NCBI RefSeq assembly: GCF_029953305.1
Contig: NZ_JASBAN010000001.1
Span: 1,387,501-1,451,500 of the forward strand
Direction of reading: 5' to 3'
Source: Commensalibacter nepenthis
GTDB taxonomy: Bacteria; Pseudomonadota; Alphaproteobacteria; Acetobacterales; Acetobacteraceae
DNA: 64,000 nt
A program made the position numbers and the translations under genes. The notes beneath the pieces are model-generated. The model was not told where the DNA came from, ran no database searches, and saw only the letters and a program-made list of their open reading frames with translations. Positions 4,602-64,000 of this stretch are shown in pieces. The first letter of the stretch is position 1. Every line of letters starts with the position of its first letter.

Positions 4602-5624
4602 TTATTTCTGAGAAACCAGATTTTGTGCCACCATAGATTCTGCAATTTGTACCGTATTTAATGCAGCACCTTTGCGTAGATTGTCAGAAACGCACCACAA
4701 AGCCAAACCATTAGGAACCGTTGGATCAATGCGTAATCTGGAAACATAAGATGCATCTTCACCAGCAGCTTCGATTTGTGTGACATATCCTTCATCTTGG
4801 CGTTCATCATATAAAATGACACCTTCTGCATTACGCAGTGCTTTGCGCGCTTTTTCCAAATCAACAGGGCGTTCACATTCAATCGTGATGGCTTCACCAT
4901 GCCCAATGAAAACAGGAACACGAACACAGGTTGCGATCACGGCAATATCTGGATCCAGAATTTTTTTGGTCTCAACCGTCATTTTCCATTCTTCTTTGGT
5001 AAATCCGTCATCCATGAATTTATCAATATGGGGAATACAGTTAAACGCAATTTGCTTGGTAAAGTTACCACGTGTAATGCTTTCCCCAATCAAAGAGGCT
5101 TTAGTTTGGGTAAAAAGTTCATCCATTCCTTTTTTACCAGCTCCACCAGTGGCTTGATAGGTTGAGACCACGATTCTTGTTATTTTAAAAAGTTCATGTA
5201 GTGGTTTTAACGCCACCACCATTTGAATGGTTGAACAATTAGGATTCGCAATAATATTGCGTTTTGCTTTTTTAAGGGCTTCGGGGTTTACTTCTGGCAC
5301 GACTAATGGCACGTCGGGTTCCATACGGAAATAAGAGGTATTATCCACCACGATACATCCTGCTTCAGCAGCTTTTGGCGCATAAATTGCAGACACAGAT
5401 GCCCCAGCAGAAGCCAATACAAAATCCCATCCGTTAAAGTCAAAGGTTTCAAGATTTTGAATTTTAAGAACTTTTTTATCACCAAAAGAAATTTCTTTGC
5501 CAGCAGAGCGAGGGGAAGCAAGCGCTGCAATATCTTTAATTGGAAAATTCCGTTCAGCAAGAATTTTTAAAATTTCTCTGCCAACAGCTCCTGTTGCGCC
5601 CATAACGGCTACGCGATAACCCAT
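4602..5624 (-). CDS. asd: Aspartate-semialdehyde dehydrogenase
   Basis: Reduces aspartyl-4-phosphate to aspartate semialdehyde with NADPH, the branch point to lysine/diaminopimelate, threonine and methionine. 340 residues, normal length. The N-terminal nucleotide-binding loop GATGAVG is at 9-15. The catalytic Cys130 lies in NPNCST. The dimerisation domain contains the HIDKFMDDGFTKEEWKM segment and a C-terminal GAALNTVQIAE typical of the family. A monocistronic gene, flanked by the hairpin at 4543-4573 and by a 212-base gap on its 5' side. Confidence 0.97.
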   Translation of the reverse strand: MGYRVAVMGATGAVGREILKILAERNFPIKDIAALASPRSAGKEISFGDKKVLKIQNLETFDFNGWDFVLASAGASVSAIYAPKAAEAGCIVVDNTSYFRMEPDVPLVVPEVNPEALKKAKRNIIANPNCSTIQMVVALKPLHELFKITRIVVSTYQATGGAGKKGMDELFTQTKASLIGESITRGNFTKQIAFNCIPHIDKFMDDGFTKEEWKMTVETKKILDPDIAVIATCVRVPVFIGHGEAITIECERPVDLEKARKALRNAEGVILYDERQDEGYVTQIEAAGEDASYVSRLRIDPTVPNGLALWCVSDNLRKGAALNTVQIAESMVAQNLVSQK

Positions 5625-5836
5625 AGTTCTTTTATCCTTAGATTAGGTTCATAAATCTTAGAGGTTATAGTTTACCTGTTTATTTTTGGATGTAAACGCA
5701 CGAAAATAAAAAACTAGCGAAAGAGATCACGATTGCACGAGATGGACAAAAATAACTATGAATTTTTATTTATGTCTTTAAAAAAGAAGATACAAAATTT
5801 TTAGTAATCTTTTAGGATCGGTTAGAAGAGTAAAAT

Positions 5837-6958
5837 ATGAATTTGCCCAGCAATGTTTATCAGGCAAGAGTAAAAGCAGGGACTTTAAAACAAGATGACG
5901 CACAACAAAAAATCGTGTTGTTATTCGATCAATTGTGTAAATCACTCGCAACTTATCAACCTGCTGTGCATTCTGTTGAAAGCGGGCTTTTGGGGTCTTT
6001 GAAAAGCCTTTGGCACAAGCCCCAGCAACCTCCAAAAGGGATTTATTTGGTTGGTTCTGTTGGGCGAGGGAAATCAATGTTAATGGATTTGTTTTTTGAA
6101 CAAGTCCCCGTCCAGCATAAAATCAGAACACATTTTCATATTTTTATGCAAGAGACTTACAAACGGTTTCATATCTTAAAACAACAATCAGGCAAAGGGG
6201 GAGATCCAATTCCTGATTTAGCCAAAGAGCTGGCTCAAAAAGCATGGCTTCTTTGTTTTGATGAATTCCAAGTTAATGATATTGCCGATGCGGTGTTGTT
6301 GGGTCGTTTGTTTGAGCAGCTTTTTGCACTGGGTGTGGTGGTTGTAGCGACTTCTAACGTCAAGATTTCTGCACTCTTTCAAAATAGACCTGGGGCAGAT
6401 GCATTCAAGCCTTTTATTAAAATTTTATCTCAACAAATGATAGAGATAGAGTTGAATGCTGCTCAAGATTATCGTTTAGGTCGTCCCGAAGATGAAAAAC
6501 GATGGTTGGTTCCTTGTACTGCCGAAAATAAAGAGCGTTTAGACCATATTTTCCTAAGTGAATCTCATGGTCGCCCCGTTAAAGAGGAAATTTTGACTGT
6601 GATGGGCAGAGCATTTCATGTGCCTTGTGCTTCTGGGATTGTGGCTCGGTTTTTATTTCGGGATTTATGCGATGTTAATTTGGGGGTAGGCGATTATCTA
6701 GCGCTTGCTCAGCGTTTCAAAGTGATTATTTTGGATGAGATTCCAAGGTTTAATCCAGATAATATGAATGTTATTGAACGTTTCACAATGCTTATTGATG
6801 TGTTATACGAACAAAATGTCAAATTATATGTTTCTGCAGAAGCAGAGTTTGAAGAAATTTATCGTAAAGAAGATCGAAGAGCGTTTTTTGAGCGTACGAT
6901 TTCACGTCTAAATGAAATGCAAGGACAAAACTGGGGAAGTGCAGCTCGGGCTTCGTAA
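5837..6958 (+). CDS. zapE: Cell division protein ZapE (AFG1-like ATPase)
   Basis: AFG1/ZapE-family P-loop ATPase; in E. coli ZapE acts at the divisome under stress, and the mitochondrial homologue helps clear respiratory subunits. 373 residues. Walker A GSVGRGKS is at 73-80. Walker B is in LLCFDEFQVND, followed by sensor-type VVVATSN. The C-terminal part has the FLFRDLCDVNLGVGDYLAL signature and the HRAF-type RRAFFERTISRL region. The gene lies directly before sucA, a neighbourhood (zapE near TCA dehydrogenase genes) common in alphaproteobacteria. Confidence 0.93.
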   Translation: MNLPSNVYQARVKAGTLKQDDAQQKIVLLFDQLCKSLATYQPAVHSVESGLLGSLKSLWHKPQQPPKGIYLVGSVGRGKSMLMDLFFEQVPVQHKIRTHFHIFMQETYKRFHILKQQSGKGGDPIPDLAKELAQKAWLLCFDEFQVNDIADAVLLGRLFEQLFALGVVVVATSNVKISALFQNRPGADAFKPFIKILSQQMIEIELNAAQDYRLGRPEDEKRWLVPCTAENKERLDHIFLSESHGRPVKEEILTVMGRAFHVPCASGIVARFLFRDLCDVNLGVGDYLALAQRFKVIILDEIPRFNPDNMNVIERFTMLIDVLYEQNVKLYVSAEAEFEEIYRKEDRRAFFERTISRLNEMQGQNWGSAARAS

Positions 6959-56401: not shown

Positions 56402-57247
56402 TTAGTATTTTTTAGCGGGTGGTGGTGCTAAATTCTCTGATTTAATATTACTATTATTTCCGCTTGGTGCCAGCTGAATGGCTCCAGAATCTATATCACT
56501 GTTATCGTCGTCCTGTTGCTTTTTGTTGCTTTTTATATTTGTTTTTTTGGTTGATCCTGTTGCTTCACTGCTTAGTTTCATAAGAATACGGCGCAATGGA
56601 TCGGCTCCTGAATTATTGACGCGCATTGCAATGACAATATCTTCTGGACCTACAGTTTCATTATAATAATTATGATTTGATTTGCTGTTAATTTTTAATT
56701 TAGAACCTTTCAAAGCAGCGCCTGCAAATAATCCAGAACTTTTTTGAATAGTATAAATATTGGATGCGCCGCTATCGGCACTACTATTAGCCGTTGCAGC
56801 GGTTGCAGAAGCACTGGCTCCCATTGTAAATTGGCTATCTAATAAGGAACGTAAGCTGGTTTCGTTCATCACAAATAACATGATTTCAGCATTCTCTACG
56901 CCTAATTGTATTCCAAAAGATCCGCTGGACATTTTATAAAAAGCGGGGCTAGACCATGATCCTTTGGCATCTCTGGATAGCAACACACAACTTCCCCCTG
57001 ATCCTCCGAAAACCAAAGAGATTCGAGTTACTGCTGGGCAAATCATAACTGCTCTGGCTTCTTTTAGACGGCTATAAAGATTATTGTCTGTAGAGACATT
57101 GCTGTAAATATCTTGGACTGCTAGGGTTGCATGATCGACCAAGGATTGTTCTGATTTTGTACTTGCATGTGCTGCATTGGAAATATTCATCCCAAATGCA
57201 GCAGTCATGCAGAGTAAAAAATATTTATAAAATTTCATTTGTTCCAT
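56402..57247 (-). CDS. Exported SYLF-domain (YSC84-type lipid-binding) protein
   Basis: 281 residues with a signal peptide (about 1-29, ending at AHA). The SYLF domain covers about 60-220: RLKEARAVMICPAVTRISLVFGGSGGSCVLLSRD is its start, with GSFGIQLGVENAEIMLFVMNE and SGLFAGAALKGSKL further on. Such domains bind phosphoinositides in eukaryotes; in bacteria their ligand is unknown. A Ser/Ala/Thr-rich segment (about 145-170) and a charged, Lys/Asp-rich C-terminus are extra to the core. It is the downstream neighbour of the SuhB-type gene. Confidence 0.85.
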   Translation of the reverse strand: MEQMKFYKYFLLCMTAAFGMNISNAAHASTKSEQSLVDHATLAVQDIYSNVSTDNNLYSRLKEARAVMICPAVTRISLVFGGSGGSCVLLSRDAKGSWSSPAFYKMSSGSFGIQLGVENAEIMLFVMNETSLRSLLDSQFTMGASASATAATANSSADSGASNIYTIQKSSGLFAGAALKGSKLKINSKSNHNYYNETVGPEDIVIAMRVNNSGADPLRRILMKLSSEATGSTKKTNIKSNKKQQDDDNSDIDSGAIQLAPSGNNSNIKSENLAPPPAKKY

Positions 57248-57281
57248 CTGTTAAACATAAAAAAATTTGAAAATAAAAGTA

Positions 57282-58076
57282 TTAAGCAGACTGTAAAGGG
57301 ATATTGACCGTTTTAGATAGAAGATCGGCTAATCCTGGTGCTGTGGTTAATATGGGAGTCGGCTGATGTAAACCACCATTTTCAAGGAAAGGTGAAGTTT
57401 TTGCCCCAGCCTCTTGTAATAAGACAAGTGCGGCAGCTACATCCCATAGATTGATTGCCATTTCAAAGTGCCCGTCTAATCTGCCACTGGCGACGTCGAC
57501 CAAAGACATTGTTCCAGAACCTAATGTGCGAATCATAGCGCCTGTTTCCAAGATAGCATTGGCGTGCTTTAAGAATTCTTCTCTTTTACTAACATGGCTC
57601 CAGCCTAGCTCAACCATTGCAATTTTGGGATCTGTGACAGGAGAGGCATGAATGCGCTGACCATTCATAAAAGCACCATGACCCAGTCTTGCGGTATAGA
57701 ATTCTTGAACAGGTGGGGCGGCAATAATTCCAAGGATTGGGGTGTTTCCTTCCATCAAACCAAGGGAAACGCACCATCTGTTACGACCTCTGGCGTAATT
57801 AGACGTGCCATCAATAGGATCAACGACCCATCTTAATGCACCGGTTCTGGTTTGTCCTTCTTCTTCACCTTGAAAGCCATCTTCTGGAAACAGTTTTTTA
57901 ATTTCTTGGGAAATGAAAGATTCTACTTTTCCGTCTGTTTCTGTTAACCAGTCTTGAGCATGTTTTAGCGAGCCCTGAGGCCCTCCTGGTGCTGGGCGCA
58001 TTGCCATAGCCATTTCAGCGGCTTTTTGAACAATAGTTTGTGCAGCGTCAAAGCGATGAGAAAGAGCATCCGTCAT
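57282..58076 (-). CDS. suhB: Inositol monophosphatase-family protein
   Basis: Mg2+-dependent phosphatase of the SuhB/IMPase family. 264 residues. Metal-binding residues are in GEEEGQ (Glu71/72) and WVVDPIDGTSNYARG (Asp86, Asp89). The C-terminal NLWDVAAALVLLQEAGA carries the last ligand. The family removes phosphate from inositol-phosphate, histidinol-phosphate or fructose-bisphosphate and also can bind transcription antitermination complexes. It lies 35 bases upstream of the SYLF gene on the same strand. Confidence 0.9.
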   Translation of the reverse strand: MTDALSHRFDAAQTIVQKAAEMAMAMRPAPGGPQGSLKHAQDWLTETDGKVESFISQEIKKLFPEDGFQGEEEGQTRTGALRWVVDPIDGTSNYARGRNRWCVSLGLMEGNTPILGIIAAPPVQEFYTARLGHGAFMNGQRIHASPVTDPKIAMVELGWSHVSKREEFLKHANAILETGAMIRTLGSGTMSLVDVASGRLDGHFEMAINLWDVAAALVLLQEAGAKTSPFLENGGLHQPTPILTTAPGLADLLSKTVNIPLQSA

Positions 58077-58634: not shown

Positions 58635-59549
58635 GTGTCTATCTATGAGACGGATATTTGGCGTGTAGGGATTATTAAATCCCCAATGAAAACAGTTGTC
58701 TCCCAAGGGATTCGTGCTGTACATTGGTTGAATAAAGAGCCAAGCTTTCGATTTTTGGCCGACCCTTTTGGATTACATCAGGACAATAAATTCTATATTT
58801 TTGCTGAAGGGTACGATTACAAAGATCGTCATGGGCGTATAGAGGTTTTAATCCTTGACGAAGCATTGCATCTTTTGGATAGAACTGTGGTGTTGCAAGA
58901 GCCATGGCATTTGTCTTATCCGATGATTATCAAAGATCAAGGACAGATTTATATGCTGCCAGAGGCATATAAGTCGGGCAGAACAACATTGTACAAAGCG
59001 AAATGTTTCCCTTATCAATGGGAATCTGTATCAGAGTTTATTTTTCCAGAAATAGCTATTGATCCTAGTGTCTTTTTTCATAATGGTTTATGGTGGATGT
59101 TTTATACGCCAGCCGATTCAGGATATAGCCGTCAAAGTGTTTTATCTGTTGCTTATTCTGAGAATTTATTAGGACCTTGGCAGCCACATTCTCAAAACCC
59201 TGTTCGTATTACGCCGTCTAGTTCTCGACCTGGTGGAAATGTCTTGGTTACAGATTCCGAGATTTTTTTGCCGACGCAAGATTGCACAATGACCTATGGG
59301 GGTGGAATATCTTTTTTAAAGATTAGTCATTTGACCTCAGAAAAATTTGAAGCGCATTGTGTGAAAAAAATTACAGCAGACGCGACGGCTTTTGGATCAT
59401 ATTGTCAAGGAATACATACATTAAGCGCACTAGGAGAGTATACATTAATTGATGCTAAGAGAATGGATCAATCTGTGTTAAAACGATTGAAAATTGATGC
59501 TCTGTTTCATTCAAGAAAAAAGTTAGGTGCTTTGTATATGAATGATTGA
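58635..59549 (+). CDS. Protein like the N-terminal domain of glucosamine inositolphosphorylceramide transferase 1
   Basis: 304 residues from a GTG start. The pattern FLADPFGLHQDNKFYIFAEG, with a five-bladed beta-propeller layout, then LSYPMIIKDQGQIYMLPEAY, DPSVFFHNGLWWMFYT, and the SRPGGNVL segment, is that of the plant GINT1 N-terminal domain family, also seen in bacterial sugar-transfer loci. No GT-A or GT-B motif, so it is likely a partner or a hydrolase-like domain rather than a complete glycosyltransferase. It converges with the GT4 gene of the lptFG operon and follows the ABM gene. Confidence 0.75.
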   Translation: MSIYETDIWRVGIIKSPMKTVVSQGIRAVHWLNKEPSFRFLADPFGLHQDNKFYIFAEGYDYKDRHGRIEVLILDEALHLLDRTVVLQEPWHLSYPMIIKDQGQIYMLPEAYKSGRTTLYKAKCFPYQWESVSEFIFPEIAIDPSVFFHNGLWWMFYTPADSGYSRQSVLSVAYSENLLGPWQPHSQNPVRITPSSSRPGGNVLVTDSEIFLPTQDCTMTYGGGISFLKISHLTSEKFEAHCVKKITADATAFGSYCQGIHTLSALGEYTLIDAKRMDQSVLKRLKIDALFHSRKKLGALYMND

Positions 59550-59575: not shown

Positions 59576-60664
59576 TTATCGTGGAGAAAATTGTTCCATT
59601 CGATCAAAGATTACTCGACCAATCCTATTAAAATGTTCTTCAGAAAAAATATTCATGACGGTCTGTCTTGCAAGTTGACCCATAGGATAAAGTAATTCTG
59701 GTTTTTGTAACAGTGTATATAAAGCATTTGCCAATGAAACAGGATCATTTGGTTCAACGGTCAGACCTGTTTGATTTTCTTGAATTGTAAAGGGAATCTC
59801 GCCGACTTTACTTGCAATAACGGGCAACCCTGCTGCCATTGCTTCGTGAGCTGCAATGCAAAACCCTTCTGAACGAGAGGGCTGAATATATAAATGATAC
59901 TGAGCAAGGGTTCGCCCAGTATGAGGCGTAAACCCTGTTAGCTTGATTTGATCTTCTAAATGGTACTGTTGAATTAGCGTTTGCAGTCTTTCATACTCTA
60001 TACCTTCCCCATAAATGGAAATCTTGTAAGGAGGAACATGAGGATATCGATTCAATAGATGGCATGCTTTAATTAAAACGTCATACCCCTTTACGGGATG
60101 CAACCTCCCCATAGAGGTAATTTGAATAATTTGTCCTTGTTCCCATGCATTCGCTTTGGGTGTATCAGGAGATGTTTTAAAAATTGGCCAAGTGATGATG
60201 TTTTCATCGGATATTTTAAGGCGCTGTTGCGTTAAATTCGTTACTTTGTTCGAATCACCAATCCATAATTTTGATAAAGAACGTGTCGCTTTTAAAAGTC
60301 TTAAATTCCATGGTTTCAGATATGCTGCATGTTGCCAACTGATAACAGGGATATTTAATTGCAATCCAGCCAATTGTCCCAATAATGTAGCTCTGGTTAA
60401 AGACGTCCATAAATGTGTTGGCTGATAGGTTCTGAGTTGTTGTTGAAGCCATAAAAAACTCTGAATATGATCTTTTAAACCGCCCTCTCTAACTACAACG
60501 GGTAAACATGCTTTATGTATTGCAGGTAATGCTTTACCATCTTTTTGGGCAAGGGTAAAGATTTTGACTTCTGCCCCATAATCCCGCATCAATGATAAAA
60601 TTGCAGGAATAGGAAAAGCAGCCCCGCCACCTTCCATGGAATTGATGATGTAAGCGATACGCAT
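59576..60664 (-). CDS. GT4-family glycosyltransferase
   Basis: 362 residues, GT-B fold. The N-terminal domain begins RIAYIINSMEGGGAA, and the C-terminal domain has the donor-site RSEGFCIAAHEAMAAGLPVIAS pattern (E-x7-E). No membrane segment. Such enzymes transfer a hexose or related sugar to a lipid-linked or head-group acceptor. It lies 7 bases after the nucleotidyltransferase gene and is the last gene of lptF-lptG-hydroxylase-NTase-GT4. Confidence 0.92.
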   Translation of the reverse strand: MRIAYIINSMEGGGAAFPIPAILSLMRDYGAEVKIFTLAQKDGKALPAIHKACLPVVVREGGLKDHIQSFLWLQQQLRTYQPTHLWTSLTRATLLGQLAGLQLNIPVISWQHAAYLKPWNLRLLKATRSLSKLWIGDSNKVTNLTQQRLKISDENIITWPIFKTSPDTPKANAWEQGQIIQITSMGRLHPVKGYDVLIKACHLLNRYPHVPPYKISIYGEGIEYERLQTLIQQYHLEDQIKLTGFTPHTGRTLAQYHLYIQPSRSEGFCIAAHEAMAAGLPVIASKVGEIPFTIQENQTGLTVEPNDPVSLANALYTLLQKPELLYPMGQLARQTVMNIFSEEHFNRIGRVIFDRMEQFSPR

Positions 60665-60671
60665 GAGTATA

Positions 60672-61436
60672 CTAATTTTGCATAAGAATACGAACGATTT
60701 TTAAATCTTCAGGTTTATCCACATCAACCGCAGCTTGCCCCCATGGCATTAACACAAAATGTGTTTTGGCTTTGGTGAGTTTGTAGATCCTTTTTTTAAG
60801 GGCATTTCTGGTTAAGCATTTTAATAAATATCTTAAAATGATCTTATATCCTAATAAATACCCCATTTTAACGGGTTTCTTACGATGTTTTTCAAGTGTT
60901 TGCCATAATCTTGCGACTTGTATGGCTTGAGGGGTTCTGAATAAAAAAAGATTACATCCTGAAAAAGAACCATCAGCAAGATTGATATAAGTCCTGCGTG
61001 TATTCGGGACATCAGATTCGATTTGTTCTTTTAATGCAATACCAACAGCAATATCACATTTTGTTAGTTCAGCTTCATTTAAAAAATGGCTGACCCACTC
61101 TAGTTGTAATAGGGGATTGTCTGCCGTGGTGACGAGCAATGGTGTCCCAAGTGTTTCAATGGCTTGAATGACACTGTCGCTGGGTCCTAAGGCAGCAGGT
61201 AAATATTGAATATATTCAGGAAGTATCTCTTGAACAATGGATTGTTGTTCAATGGTAACGGCAATTTTATTAATAATATTTAGTTTGGATAAGGTTTGGA
61301 CAACATATTCAATCATAGGTCGTCCTAGAATAGGTAAGATGGCTTTATGAGAAACGTGAGCTTGTTTTGCCAAAGGGTCTTGTTGACCTTCTCTGGAGCC
61401 AGCCAGTATCAAAGCATTAACAGATTCACGTTCCAT
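60672..61436 (-). CDS. Nucleotidyltransferase-family protein (MobA/IspD-like)
   Basis: 254 residues. The NTP-binding start is ALILAGSREGQQ, the catalytic Lys follows in SHKAILPILGRPMIEYVV, and the metal-binding Asp is in VTTADNPLL. The C-terminus PWGQAAVDVDKPEDLKIV is typical of sugar- or alditol-phosphate nucleotidyltransferases. The activated group (for example CDP- or UDP-sugar, or CDP-inositol) cannot be deduced. It sits between the hydroxylase and GT4 genes with gaps of 9 and 7 bases, so it probably supplies the donor to GT4. Confidence 0.85.
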   Translation of the reverse strand: MERESVNALILAGSREGQQDPLAKQAHVSHKAILPILGRPMIEYVVQTLSKLNIINKIAVTIEQQSIVQEILPEYIQYLPAALGPSDSVIQAIETLGTPLLVTTADNPLLQLEWVSHFLNEAELTKCDIAVGIALKEQIESDVPNTRRTYINLADGSFSGCNLFLFRTPQAIQVARLWQTLEKHRKKPVKMGYLLGYKIILRYLLKCLTRNALKKRIYKLTKAKTHFVLMPWGQAAVDVDKPEDLKIVRILMQN

Positions 61437-61445
61437 ATTATAATC

Positions 61446-62270
61446 CTAAGCTGCCTTTTGTTCCTGATGTGTAGATGATTTTTTTTGTTCACGAAAATTA
61501 GACCCTTCGGGACGATCACGAGGAGGGGATCCAGTTTTCAACATAACCCAAGGATAGCGTTCTGCTTCTTTGATATCATATCCTATGTTGAACACGGTTG
61601 GGCTACGAGGGCGGCTTTTCGCATCTGTGTAGAAAGTACCAAAAACTCTATCCCAGAAATAGTTTGTAATGCCGTAGTTACCTTTTTCAAAGTGAAAATG
61701 ATGCATGATATGTAGCTGTTTGATACGCAATACATAGTGGGACTTTGGTTTATACCCAAGATGTTGAATACAATGAAAAAACTCGTAAAAACAAGCCATG
61801 TATATTGCCGTTCCAATGGCAGCAAAAGCACCTGGTACCCCACCAACAGCCAGTCCAATTCCACCGCCCACAATAATGATCGTTGGGATTGTGTTTAAAG
61901 GGGAACCAAACAGAACATTCAAAAGATGTGGGTCTTGGTGATGGTCAAAGTGAATCCTTTTCCACAAAGAGGCTGTCCATTTAATTTGGTATAAAAAAGT
62001 AGCATGCATAATCCAACGATGGATAATATACCAAATTAAAGGGAAGCCCAAAATCATAACAATAGTTGAAGCCAGGACGGGCATCCATCCTGTGAATGTA
62101 TAGTAGATACCTACAATACAGGCAAGAATAAGGCTAAAGTAAAGCAAAATGGTGCCGTGTGTTAAATAGGCTACCCACAGTTCCTTTAGATTCATTTTTC
62201 CTAAATCATAACTGCGCCCAGAGCGTAGTTCTTGATTGCGCATAATCTGAAAGATAGATTGGCTTTTCAT
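61446..62270 (-). CDS. Fatty acid hydroxylase/sterol desaturase-family membrane enzyme
   Basis: 274 residues with three to four membrane segments. The di-iron histidine boxes are complete: His84-x4-His89, His107-x2-His110-His111, His166-x3-His170, His187-x2-His190-His191. This family hydroxylates or desaturates fatty acyl chains, sphingoid bases, sterols or carotenoids. The gene overlaps lptG by four bases (ATGA), and so is translationally coupled to an LPS permease gene. A lipid of the outer membrane is the likely substrate; identity unknown. Confidence 0.9.
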   Translation of the reverse strand: MKSQSIFQIMRNQELRSGRSYDLGKMNLKELWVAYLTHGTILLYFSLILACIVGIYYTFTGWMPVLASTIVMILGFPLIWYIIHRWIMHATFLYQIKWTASLWKRIHFDHHQDPHLLNVLFGSPLNTIPTIIIVGGGIGLAVGGVPGAFAAIGTAIYMACFYEFFHCIQHLGYKPKSHYVLRIKQLHIMHHFHFEKGNYGITNYFWDRVFGTFYTDAKSRPRSPTVFNIGYDIKEAERYPWVMLKTGSPPRDRPEGSNFREQKKSSTHQEQKAA

Positions 62271-63367
62271 GTTTTTTCTTCAATCATTAAAATAATAGCA
62301 CTGGCTGCTAAGATAAATATTAACAGTGAGGGAATAACTGCAATAGGCGCTGGTAATGTTCCAGCTTTTCCCAAAGCGCGTAGAACTTCCTGAAAAATAA
62401 TAAACAACAATCCAGCTCCTAAACAATATACAGGCAACCAGCTTTTTAATCCAGCTCTTGGAGGGATTGAGGTAACGGGGATGGCAATAATTAACATAAC
62501 GATGAACATAATGGGGATGAATAATCGCGCCCAAATGGTTGTTTTAATCGTATTTGTAGGTACTCGAAATGGCTCTGCTGCATTAGATAGTTGATTTAGC
62601 ATTGTTTGTAAAGACTGGGGTAGGGAAGGCATGGAAAGTCCTACCAATGCACGTGGTGTTAAAGATGTGTCCCAAATCATCTCTTCGGGTTTGGTCAATT
62701 TTGTAAATTCCAAGGGAACGCCAGGCGCAATATGTAATGCTTTGGCATTGGAAAGATTCCATTGTTTGTTGGTATATTGCGCTGTTTCTGCGCTGAAAAT
62801 AGATTCTAGATGAGACAAATCTTTGCGTTTGTAAATGGTCACCCCTTTGATCATATTGCCACCATAAGCGATATAATCAACACTAATGATATCGAGATTT
62901 TGATAGAAATAAAATCCTTTGCCTTTTTCAGGCGTAGGGTCTGTTTTATTCCACCAAATTGCTAAATTTAACTCTGATCTTGGTGTAATTTGGTCATGAA
63001 AAATAAAACAAATAACCCCAAGTAATAAGGTTGCAGGCAATAATTTGCTTATAAATCCAACAGAAGATAATCCTGCGGCTTTTAAAATAGTGACCTCATT
63101 ATTCAATGTCAGTTGCGTCAACATCACAATCGTACCGATTAACATACTCAGGGGTAAAACAGAGCTAAATAATAAAGGTAATCGCAATCCCATATAGTGC
63201 GCAATTCCTATCCATCCTAAATGCCTTGCCAGAATAGGAGACATTTGTTCAAGAAGGGTTAATGCTTCCATAATAATGGTAAACAGAACAGCAGTGCCTA
63301 AAACGATACTTAATAATCGTAGCGAAAGATAAATAATTAATTGATGTCGCCTAAACATATTGTTCAT
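62267..63367 (-). CDS. lptG: LPS export ABC transporter permease LptG
   Basis: 366 residues of the YjgP/YjgQ family. N- and C-terminal membrane segments (about 12-35, 60-80, 100-120; 275-360) flank a large periplasmic domain (about 130-265) with a beta-jellyroll. LPLLFSSVLPLSMLIGTI and NEVTILKAAGLSS are family hallmarks. It forms the inner-membrane core of the LptB2FG complex with LptF. Its start overlaps the lptF stop by one base and its stop overlaps the hydroxylase start by four. Confidence 0.93.
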   Translation of the reverse strand: MNNMFRRHQLIIYLSLRLLSIVLGTAVLFTIIMEALTLLEQMSPILARHLGWIGIAHYMGLRLPLLFSSVLPLSMLIGTIVMLTQLTLNNEVTILKAAGLSSVGFISKLLPATLLLGVICFIFHDQITPRSELNLAIWWNKTDPTPEKGKGFYFYQNLDIISVDYIAYGGNMIKGVTIYKRKDLSHLESIFSAETAQYTNKQWNLSNAKALHIAPGVPLEFTKLTKPEEMIWDTSLTPRALVGLSMPSLPQSLQTMLNQLSNAAEPFRVPTNTIKTTIWARLFIPIMFIVMLIIAIPVTSIPPRAGLKSWLPVYCLGAGLLFIIFQEVLRALGKAGTLPAPIAVIPSLLIFILAASAIILMIEEKT

Positions 63368-64000
63368 TATTTACCCATATGCTTTGATGAACGTTTGAAT
63401 AAGAAAATAAAAAGATACTGTAAATTACCACTTTTAAATAATAATATAGTATAGCACATGATAAAAAATAGAAACAAAGGTATCCATAATGTAATAAAGG
63501 CTGAATGATGCCCCGTAGCAACGAGTTCAGTGCCAAATTGTTGGATATGGTCATATGCTAATAACGTGATTGCTGCGATACCTAGTCCCCTGTTACGCTT
63601 TTTACGTTTTTTCATAATAGCCAGTCCAGTTGCAAGGATGGGAATACCAAGAATGGATAAAGCCCTGACAAGTCGAAAATGGAATTCTGCTCTCATGTCG
63701 GCAATAGAGGTAGAGTTGGTATGGTGGCGTAATTGTTGAAATAATTCTGTAATGGTGAGCTCTCGCTCATCATCCCCGCGTTCACGGAAGGTTACTTTTT
63801 TACCTTGCTGTTTTAAGTTTTTTTCAGCTTTCGTAAAGTCAGTAATATTGTTCTTGTTGTTTGAATTTAAAGTCAGATTTTGTCCGTTATACAAATTAAG
63901 TTGTATTTTAGAGCGGTTTTGAACTGTATAAAAAGAGCCTGATGCAGCAACGATGATATGTTCAGTGGTTTTGTTTTTAACCTTATCTAGTGCTTTTTGC
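63367..64000 (-). CDS. lptF: LPS export ABC transporter permease LptF (partial, N-terminus off the right edge)
   Basis: The reading frame is open to the window edge on the minus strand, so only the C-terminal 210 residues or so are seen. They include the end of the periplasmic domain and the C-terminal membrane bundle with AEFHFRLVRALSILGIPILATGLAI, the characteristic RFHWRL-type segment of the family (here EFHFRL). Partner of LptG in LPS export. It is the first gene of the five-gene minus-strand operon. Truncation is from the window limit. Confidence 0.9.
   Translation of the reverse strand, partial: QKALDKVKNKTTEHIIVAASGSFYTVQNRSKIQLNLYNGQNLTLNSNNKNNITDFTKAEKNLKQQGKKVTFRERGDDERELTITELFQQLRHHTNSTSIADMRAEFHFRLVRALSILGIPILATGLAIMKKRKKRNRGLGIAAITLLAYDHIQQFGTELVATGHHSAFITLWIPLFLFFIMCYTILLFKSGNLQYLFIFLFKRSSKHMGK

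Follow-up and report, generated by a model that had tools for sequence, protein, structure and literature searches.

Gene organisation at the locus

We describe a locus of Commensalibacter nepenthis at the end of a 64,000-nucleotide stretch of its genome (contig NZ_JASBAN010000001.1, positions 1,387,501 to 1,451,500), hereafter the window; coordinates without prefix follow the numbering of the window. Five consecutive genes lie there on the minus strand: lptF, lptG, and the genes of a membrane hydroxylase (HYD), a nucleotidyltransferase (NTase) and a GT4 glycosyltransferase. The first two overlap by 1 base and lptG and HYD by 4; gaps of 9 and 7 bases separate HYD from NTase and NTase from GT4. 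A sequence-only reading of the window had given this arrangement with the same spacings, and our coordinates agree with it. It had also spoken of genes fused into the operon: they form a single operon, and there is no gene fusion.

The two Lpt proteins are second paralogues in this genome, LptF2 and LptG2. LptF2 runs from 63367 to about 64587, beyond the last base of the window at 64000; its remainder was taken from the same genome, and the whole gene (5368-6588 in the extended stretch L005) encodes 406 amino acids. LptG2 occupies 62267-63367, and PF03739 matches both proteins (190.3 and 190.1 bits). They are followed by a hydroxylase of the FA2H/Scs7 type (61446-62270, 274 residues, PF04116 at 76.8 bits), a MobA/IspD-like NTase (60672-61436, PF12804 at 47.7 bits) and GT4 (59576-60664, PF00534 at 120.9 bits).

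Beyond the window, 9 bases upstream of lptF, lies a metallophosphoesterase gene (MPE, about 64597-65481, minus strand, PF00149). Further on come two plus-strand genes: a lipid kinase (PF00781 at 46 bits, with a GGDG stretch) and, beside the serine palmitoyltransferase (SPT) gene, open reading frame 8 (ORF8), a protein without Pfam match and with a predicted Tam41 fold. SPT itself (about 67583-68785, minus strand) matches the NCBIfam equivalog NF047599 with 607 bits (cut-off 500). Directly upstream of it, on the same strand, are an acyl carrier protein (ACP) gene and then the end of an acyl ligase gene. The ceramide-synthase-like (CerS) gene of this genome is distant from the locus, at C1:2308811-2309929. 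Since SPT, ACP, the lipid kinase and the Tam41-fold gene adjoin, we read the locus as one for a sphingolipid and not for lipid A.

Conservation and co-occurrence with serine palmitoyltransferase

We collected relatives of the locus by a profile scan of genome contigs and kept the best 80 of at least 505 confirmed relatives (79 from Acetobacteraceae, one from a Hyphomicrobiales metagenome-assembled genome); being chosen by their NTase match, these named loci are biased toward NTase. Commensalibacter communis, its NTase 91% identical, is the nearest named relative among the matches listed. Of the 80 named loci, 79 keep the genes of MPE, LptF2, LptG2, HYD and NTase in this order along a single strand, an order that is not due to chance. 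The exception is the Hyphomicrobiales genome, where NTase is separated from LptG2 by CerS. Only 33 of the loci were seen to include GT4, in one case on the opposite strand. Of the five-gene order expected across Acetobacteraceae, the part up to NTase is thus conserved and GT4 is not. Likewise, the idea of a conserved unit building and exporting a glycosylated, hydroxylated envelope lipid holds for the unit and for the hydroxylated lipid, with GT4 as an optional addition.

Among 120 Acetobacteraceae genomes, SPT is over its cut-off in 36, a close hydroxylase (E < 1e-80) is found in 35, and 34 have both. Close hydroxylases thus occur in 34 of 36 SPT-positive genomes versus 1 of 84 others (Fisher p 2e-26, uncorrected for relatedness). 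The threshold was chosen after viewing the list and falls in a gap between 2.8e-82 and 2.8e-21; 18 further genomes of the family have only weaker hydroxylase matches. SPT occurs without a close hydroxylase in G021 and G098, and the reverse is seen in G056, which has an SPT-like gene of 275 bits 6 kb away. The 35 hydroxylase loci contain NTase in 30 cases, LptF2 with LptG2 in 29, MPE in 29, GT4 in 14 (one weak) and the GINT1_N domain described below in 15.

The association extends to the class. In a sample of 240 Alphaproteobacteria we found ORF8 (E up to 1e-6) in 28 genomes, NTase (E up to 1e-15) in 26 and SPT (E up to 1e-110) in 32; all 26 NTase genomes and all 28 ORF8 genomes are SPT-positive. 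SPT was first called by E-value against NF047603, whose own cut-off only 2 of the 240 genomes pass and which matched the E. coli control too. All 32 SPT-positive genomes pass the sister model NF047599 at 500 bits (30 rescanned, plus G000 and G040), and the counts are unchanged. Twenty cluster stretches from 19 genomes of this sample include a hydroxylase in 15 cases, and the gene directly before NTase is a GNAT-type CerS-like gene in 16.

The sequence-only reading had left the product as either a modified lipid A or a sphingolipid. The neighbouring SPT, ACP, kinase and Tam41-fold genes speak for the latter, which also fits because of the co-occurrence with SPT across genomes. We are therefore fairly confident that the five genes are part of a phosphosphingolipid locus, of which they form the export and tailoring arm.

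Two Lpt permeases and their probable cargo

The lptFG pair of the window had been taken for the lipopolysaccharide (LPS) export permease. It is instead a second, divergent pair on separate tree branches, and the LPS-type pair stands elsewhere, before lptD. The genome has four LptF/LptG genes, and the other pair (C1:771349-773568) is followed by lptD, confirmed by search, and by surA- and ksgA-like genes, named from their sequences. That pair passes the LPS-permease cut-offs with 256.3 (LptF) and 255.1 (LptG) bits. The window pair remains under the equivalog cut-offs, with 179.6 bits versus 230 for LptF2 (TIGR04407) and 179.7 versus 240 for LptG2 (TIGR04408), scores which show divergence only. 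The genome has one LptD and one LptC match; a second LptC was not found in the genome search, which a very divergent copy might escape.

Genomes with and without LpxC, our sole marker of LPS, point to the cargo. LpxC is present in 14 of the 32 SPT-positive genomes of the class sample and gives no match in 18; among the 208 SPT-negative genomes, 20 lack a match. Four or more LptF/LptG genes occur in 13 of the 14 genomes with both SPT and LpxC, in none of the 18 with SPT and no LpxC, and in 1 of the 208 without SPT (G141). The 18 LpxC-negative SPT genomes, 17 of them at least 99% complete, have exactly two LptF/LptG genes in 16 cases and none in two (G184, G189); LptD is kept in 17, the exception being G184. 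Of the 16 LPS-less genomes with one pair, 14 have it next to SPT, ORF8 or NTase (G131, G155, G157, G176, G194, G198, G211, G249, G276, G282, G303, G309, G312 and G350). In G263 the distance between the pair and SPT is about 315 kb; G284 is outside the placement count.

Contrasts within families mostly agree with this. An SPT-positive genome lacks LpxC and an SPT-negative relative has it in both f28 and f93. In f34, f51, f91 and f126 a genome with SPT and LpxC has four LptF/LptG genes, versus two in an SPT-negative relative; in f124 the numbers are four versus three, the relative being 80% complete.

We also built a tree of 88 LptF/LptG domains by a quick search, with branch support from the Shimodaira-Hasegawa-like approximate likelihood ratio test (SH-aLRT). 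It parts LptF from LptG, and in each of them 20 LPS-type rows from 24 cluster rows (support 99 and 97 for LptF, 99 and 83 for LptG). The cluster rows include the window pair and, for 15 of the 16 LPS-less genomes having one pair, its LptF as well as its LptG. G284 was left out of the tree. The LPS-type pair of G213 was not caught in its stretch L255, and this genome has only cluster rows. Three Acetobacteraceae (G060, G013, G118) are tagged 'LPS?' because the LpxC search did not cover them.

Altogether, the LptF/LptG counts with and without LpxC, the retention of LptD and the grouping in the tree point to LptF2G2 as the sphingolipid exporter. We think it rather likely that LptF2G2 is a dedicated sphingolipid permease, which in LPS producers such as Commensalibacter shares one LptD with the LPS permease, and that at least ten families of Alphaproteobacteria have lost LPS and use Lpt for sphingolipid only, even though annotation models continue to call many Lpt components LPS exporters. 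Alternatively, the cargo of the second pair could be LPS or some variant of lipid A, and its location could be owed to co-regulation of envelope genes, an option that can appeal to a protein family defined by LPS export and to the cluster LptF/LptG proteins of LPS-less relatives, 3 of 6 of which pass the NCBI LPS-export cut-offs and two of which lie within 5 bits of them. We find this very unlikely: 16 of the 18 SPT-positive genomes without LpxC match keep exactly one pair, and 15 of these 16 have their pair, like the window pair, on branches apart from the 40 LPS-type rows. Modified lipid A was also rejected as the product, given the SPT locus and the LpxC-negative genomes that keep an LptFG pair.

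Several observations weigh against the proposed locus function with LptF2G2 as sphingolipid exporter. LPS absence is scored on LpxC alone. LPS-type and cluster-type proteins are not told apart by the equivalog cut-offs, as the cluster proteins passing them show, and support for the LptG2 group is moderate (83; drawn open, with one very long row). In six of the 35 hydroxylase loci (L034, L036, L053, L054, L056 and L061, stretches of at most 20 kb) LptF2G2 was not seen. G197 has SPT and LpxC with only two LptF/LptG genes, and neither an ORF8 nor an NTase match. G184, a complete genome with SPT at 641 bits and no LpxC, has no match to LptF/LptG, LptD, ORF8 or NTase; a genome can thus carry sphingolipid genes and no Lpt, and this one may be a sphingolipid maker using no Lpt system. 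G189 also lacks an LptF/LptG match (82% complete). Finally, LptF/LptG genes occur in 11 of the 20 genomes without SPT or LpxC, and three of these 11 (G177, G180, G252) are at least 95% complete: an Lpt pair without LpxC is thus not unique to sphingolipid makers.

Two side observations concern these proteins. L034 and L036, from the same genus (1.9 and 2.1 Mb), keep SPT, hydroxylase and NTase, with no MPE or LptFG2 within 20 kb. In two LpxC-negative genomes (L102 9812-12120 and L106 11651-14040), 3 of 4 LptF/LptG proteins pass the NCBI LPS-export cut-offs, so automatic LPS-export names mislead there.

Hydroxylase and nucleotidyltransferase

A hydroxylase with four histidine boxes had been recognised in the window, and its boxes HX4H, HX2HH, HX3H and HX2HH are invariant, with all ten histidines, in 18 aligned sequences (its own included). 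Searched against characterised families, it has no Pfam domain besides PF04116, and the only solved sequences matched in the PDB are those of yeast SCS7 (E 3.4e-4 with the single sequence, 1.2e-9 with the family profile). PF04116, the four boxes and the profile match make it resemble yeast Scs7 and mammalian FA2H; it has 274 residues, compared with 392 in the longer Scs7 entry. The ceramide acyl chain of Acetobacter is 2-hydroxypalmitate. Judging from the sequence matches, the enzyme would most likely 2-hydroxylate the N-acyl chain of ceramide.

The same profile search, applied to NTase, placed it in the PF12804 family. The AlphaFold2 model of the window protein (predicted local distance difference test, pLDDT, 94) has as best solved match 2dpw, an uncharacterised Thermus protein, followed by CMP-sugar synthetases, IspD, GlmU and TarI. 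Because these are among the structural matches, cytidine triphosphate (CTP) is a likely substrate. We count it among the core sphingolipid genes and, judging from relatives in which it adjoins CerS, as a possible counterpart of Caulobacter CC_1153.

Other substrates can be considered for both enzymes. The hydroxylase could act on the long-chain base (at C4, giving the phytosphingosine type, as Sur2 does) or on another lipid, since PF04116 spans several substrate types and, with SCS7 as the only solved match, subtypes cannot be told apart by the match. That match is nevertheless a ceramide fatty acid hydroxylase, and Caulobacter sphingolipids do bear an N-acyl hydroxyl, ascribed in the relevant passages of PMC11324152 to an unrelated DesA-type enzyme; we regard action away from the N-acyl C2 as possible, and clearly the lesser prospect. 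The NTase, for its part, could make a CDP- (cytidine diphosphate) or other NDP-sugar, or an activated polyol, for use by GT4, the product being a glycosylated sphingolipid. Adjacency of the two genes agrees with this, as do TarI and the CMP-sugar synthetases among the structural matches. GT4 is present, though, in only 33 of 80 NTase loci, a fraction that led us to discard an obligate NTase-GT4 pair; in 16 of the 20 class-level stretches NTase follows CerS instead, and GT4 enzymes usually use UDP- or GDP-sugars. We judge it unlikely that NTase serves GT4. The earlier suggestion that the two form a unit making and using an activated sugar is not supported: in the class sample each of the 26 genomes with NTase is SPT-positive, compared with the 33 of 80 named loci that include GT4.

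An additional locus, L104 8090-10719 (family f39, no LpxC match), has two NTases about 1 kb apart and about 65 kb from SPT, in a cluster stretch without hydroxylase.

Proposed sphingolipid pathway

From what is observed, namely gene content, order, conservation, paralogy, co-occurrence and two model folds, we infer the scheme that follows, with its enzyme substrates, head group, LptF2G2 cargo, and the sequence and side of its steps. SPT, the adjacent ACP, the acyl ligase and the distant CerS would make ceramide, which the hydroxylase would hydroxylate, C2 of the N-acyl chain being the most likely site. The kinase step would yield ceramide-1-phosphate, probably converted by the Tam41-fold protein into its CDP-activated form, and NTase would activate a head-group alcohol phosphate. 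GT4, where present, may add a sugar. LptF2G2 would then take the completed sphingolipid out of the inner membrane and pass it to the Lpt bridge, presumably shared with LPS in this genome, given its single LptD and single LptC match.

The ORF8 step comes from structure comparison. The AlphaFold2 model of the C. communis protein (pLDDT 90) has Tam41 as best match in both comparisons, with Z-scores of 18.4, 15.9 and 15.3 against Tam41 entries and 6.9 for the best other protein. The top alignment covers 231 residues at 3.3 A and 13% identity, and Foldseek gives TM-scores near 0.5. No Tam41 Pfam match was obtained in 23 ORF8 members, one of which matched an unrelated domain of unknown function (DUF) at E 0.002. 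Because Tam41 makes CDP-diacylglycerol, our guess is that ORF8 is a CDP-ceramide synthetase acting on ceramide-1-phosphate. In its passages on CC_1161, PMC11324152 reasons likewise.

Optional genes and other neighbours

Convergent to GT4, a gene on the plus strand (58635-59549) encodes a GINT1_N-domain protein (PF24793 at 135.6 bits), present in 31 of the 80 named loci; it may have a putative role in head-group tailoring. The domain is named after the plant glucosamine inositolphosphorylceramide transferase. On the minus strand at 56402-58076 lie an inositol-monophosphatase-like gene, named from its sequence, and a gene for a small secreted-looking protein, found by the cluster in 52 of the 80 named loci; both are probably mere neighbours. 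Together, the GINT1_N protein and the inositol-phosphatase-like neighbour may hint at an inositol link or head group, a Pfam name being no evidence of substrate.

No CDP-alcohol transferase was found by Pfam among the ten proteins of our own locus, nor in the 80 named loci with one- and two-sequence models. Outside Acetobacteraceae, CDP-alcohol phosphatidyltransferase genes are seen (L102 7516-8637 and 12124-13335; matches in 7 of the 20 class-level stretches), hinting at a different head-group step there.

Comparison with known systems

The locus is most likely, by analogy, a variant of the CPG/CPG2 locus of Caulobacter crescentus (CC_1168-CC_1152), as described in the relevant passages of PMC11324152. 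Both contain SPT and ACP, and both have a phosphoesterase, LptF2, LptG2 and NTase in one region; the lipid kinase and the Tam41-fold ORF8 may correspond to the kinase CpgB and the CDP-diacylglycerol-synthase-like CpgC of Caulobacter. The position of NTase after CerS in relatives agrees with the numbering CC_1154 (cerS) and CC_1153 (NTase) in that paper, where CC_1158 is given a phosphoesterase domain; MPE may be its counterpart. The differences from the Caulobacter locus, as those passages present it, are that an FA2H-type hydroxylase stands within the operon in place of a distant DesA-type enzyme, that CerS is elsewhere, that one NTase was seen instead of two, with one LptC match, and that GT4 and GINT1_N genes occur optionally with no CDP-alcohol transferase like CpgA seen. 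Two points loosen the parallel: orthology with CC_1153, CC_1158 and CC_1161 is argued from gene neighbourhood, fold and what the paper says; and neither LptC2 nor a CDP-alcohol transferase was seen, nor was CerR located.

A second system to compare is CpgD, the CTP:phosphoglycerate cytidylyltransferase whose description in parts of PMC12275187 is of a likewise small nucleotidyltransferase required for the sphingolipid head group. R15, K31 and D106 of the window NTase, invariant in 24 sequences, may correspond to the three active-site residues named for CpgD. Unlike CpgD, and comparing by description, the window NTase takes the position of CC_1153 and has 2dpw as best solved match.

In its transport passages, PMC11324152 proposes LptC2/F2/G2 and a flippase as sphingolipid transporters, the route to the outer membrane not being known, and a 2024 paper (PMC11087976) states at the relevant place that flippases or lipid transporters for bacterial sphingolipids are yet to be identified. 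The pathway had not been recognised as a described one: it has a counterpart in Caulobacter, and the Acetobacteraceae version with its hydroxylase was not found in the open-access literature. Nor did we find there a prior statement of the Acetobacteraceae layout or of the comparison between genomes with and without LpxC; these two, the layout having a built-in FA2H-type hydroxylase, are what is new here. The LpxC-negative genomes offer a natural test in which the Lpt cargo is probably not LPS, and, if the proposal is true, the label 'LPS export permease' is misleading there. Acetic acid bacteria, whose dihydroceramide has been tried as a food supplement (trial cited in PMC11722302), offer a candidate bacterial ceramide hydroxylase of the FA2H type and, next to the Caulobacter system, a compact locus in which sphingolipid export could be proved.

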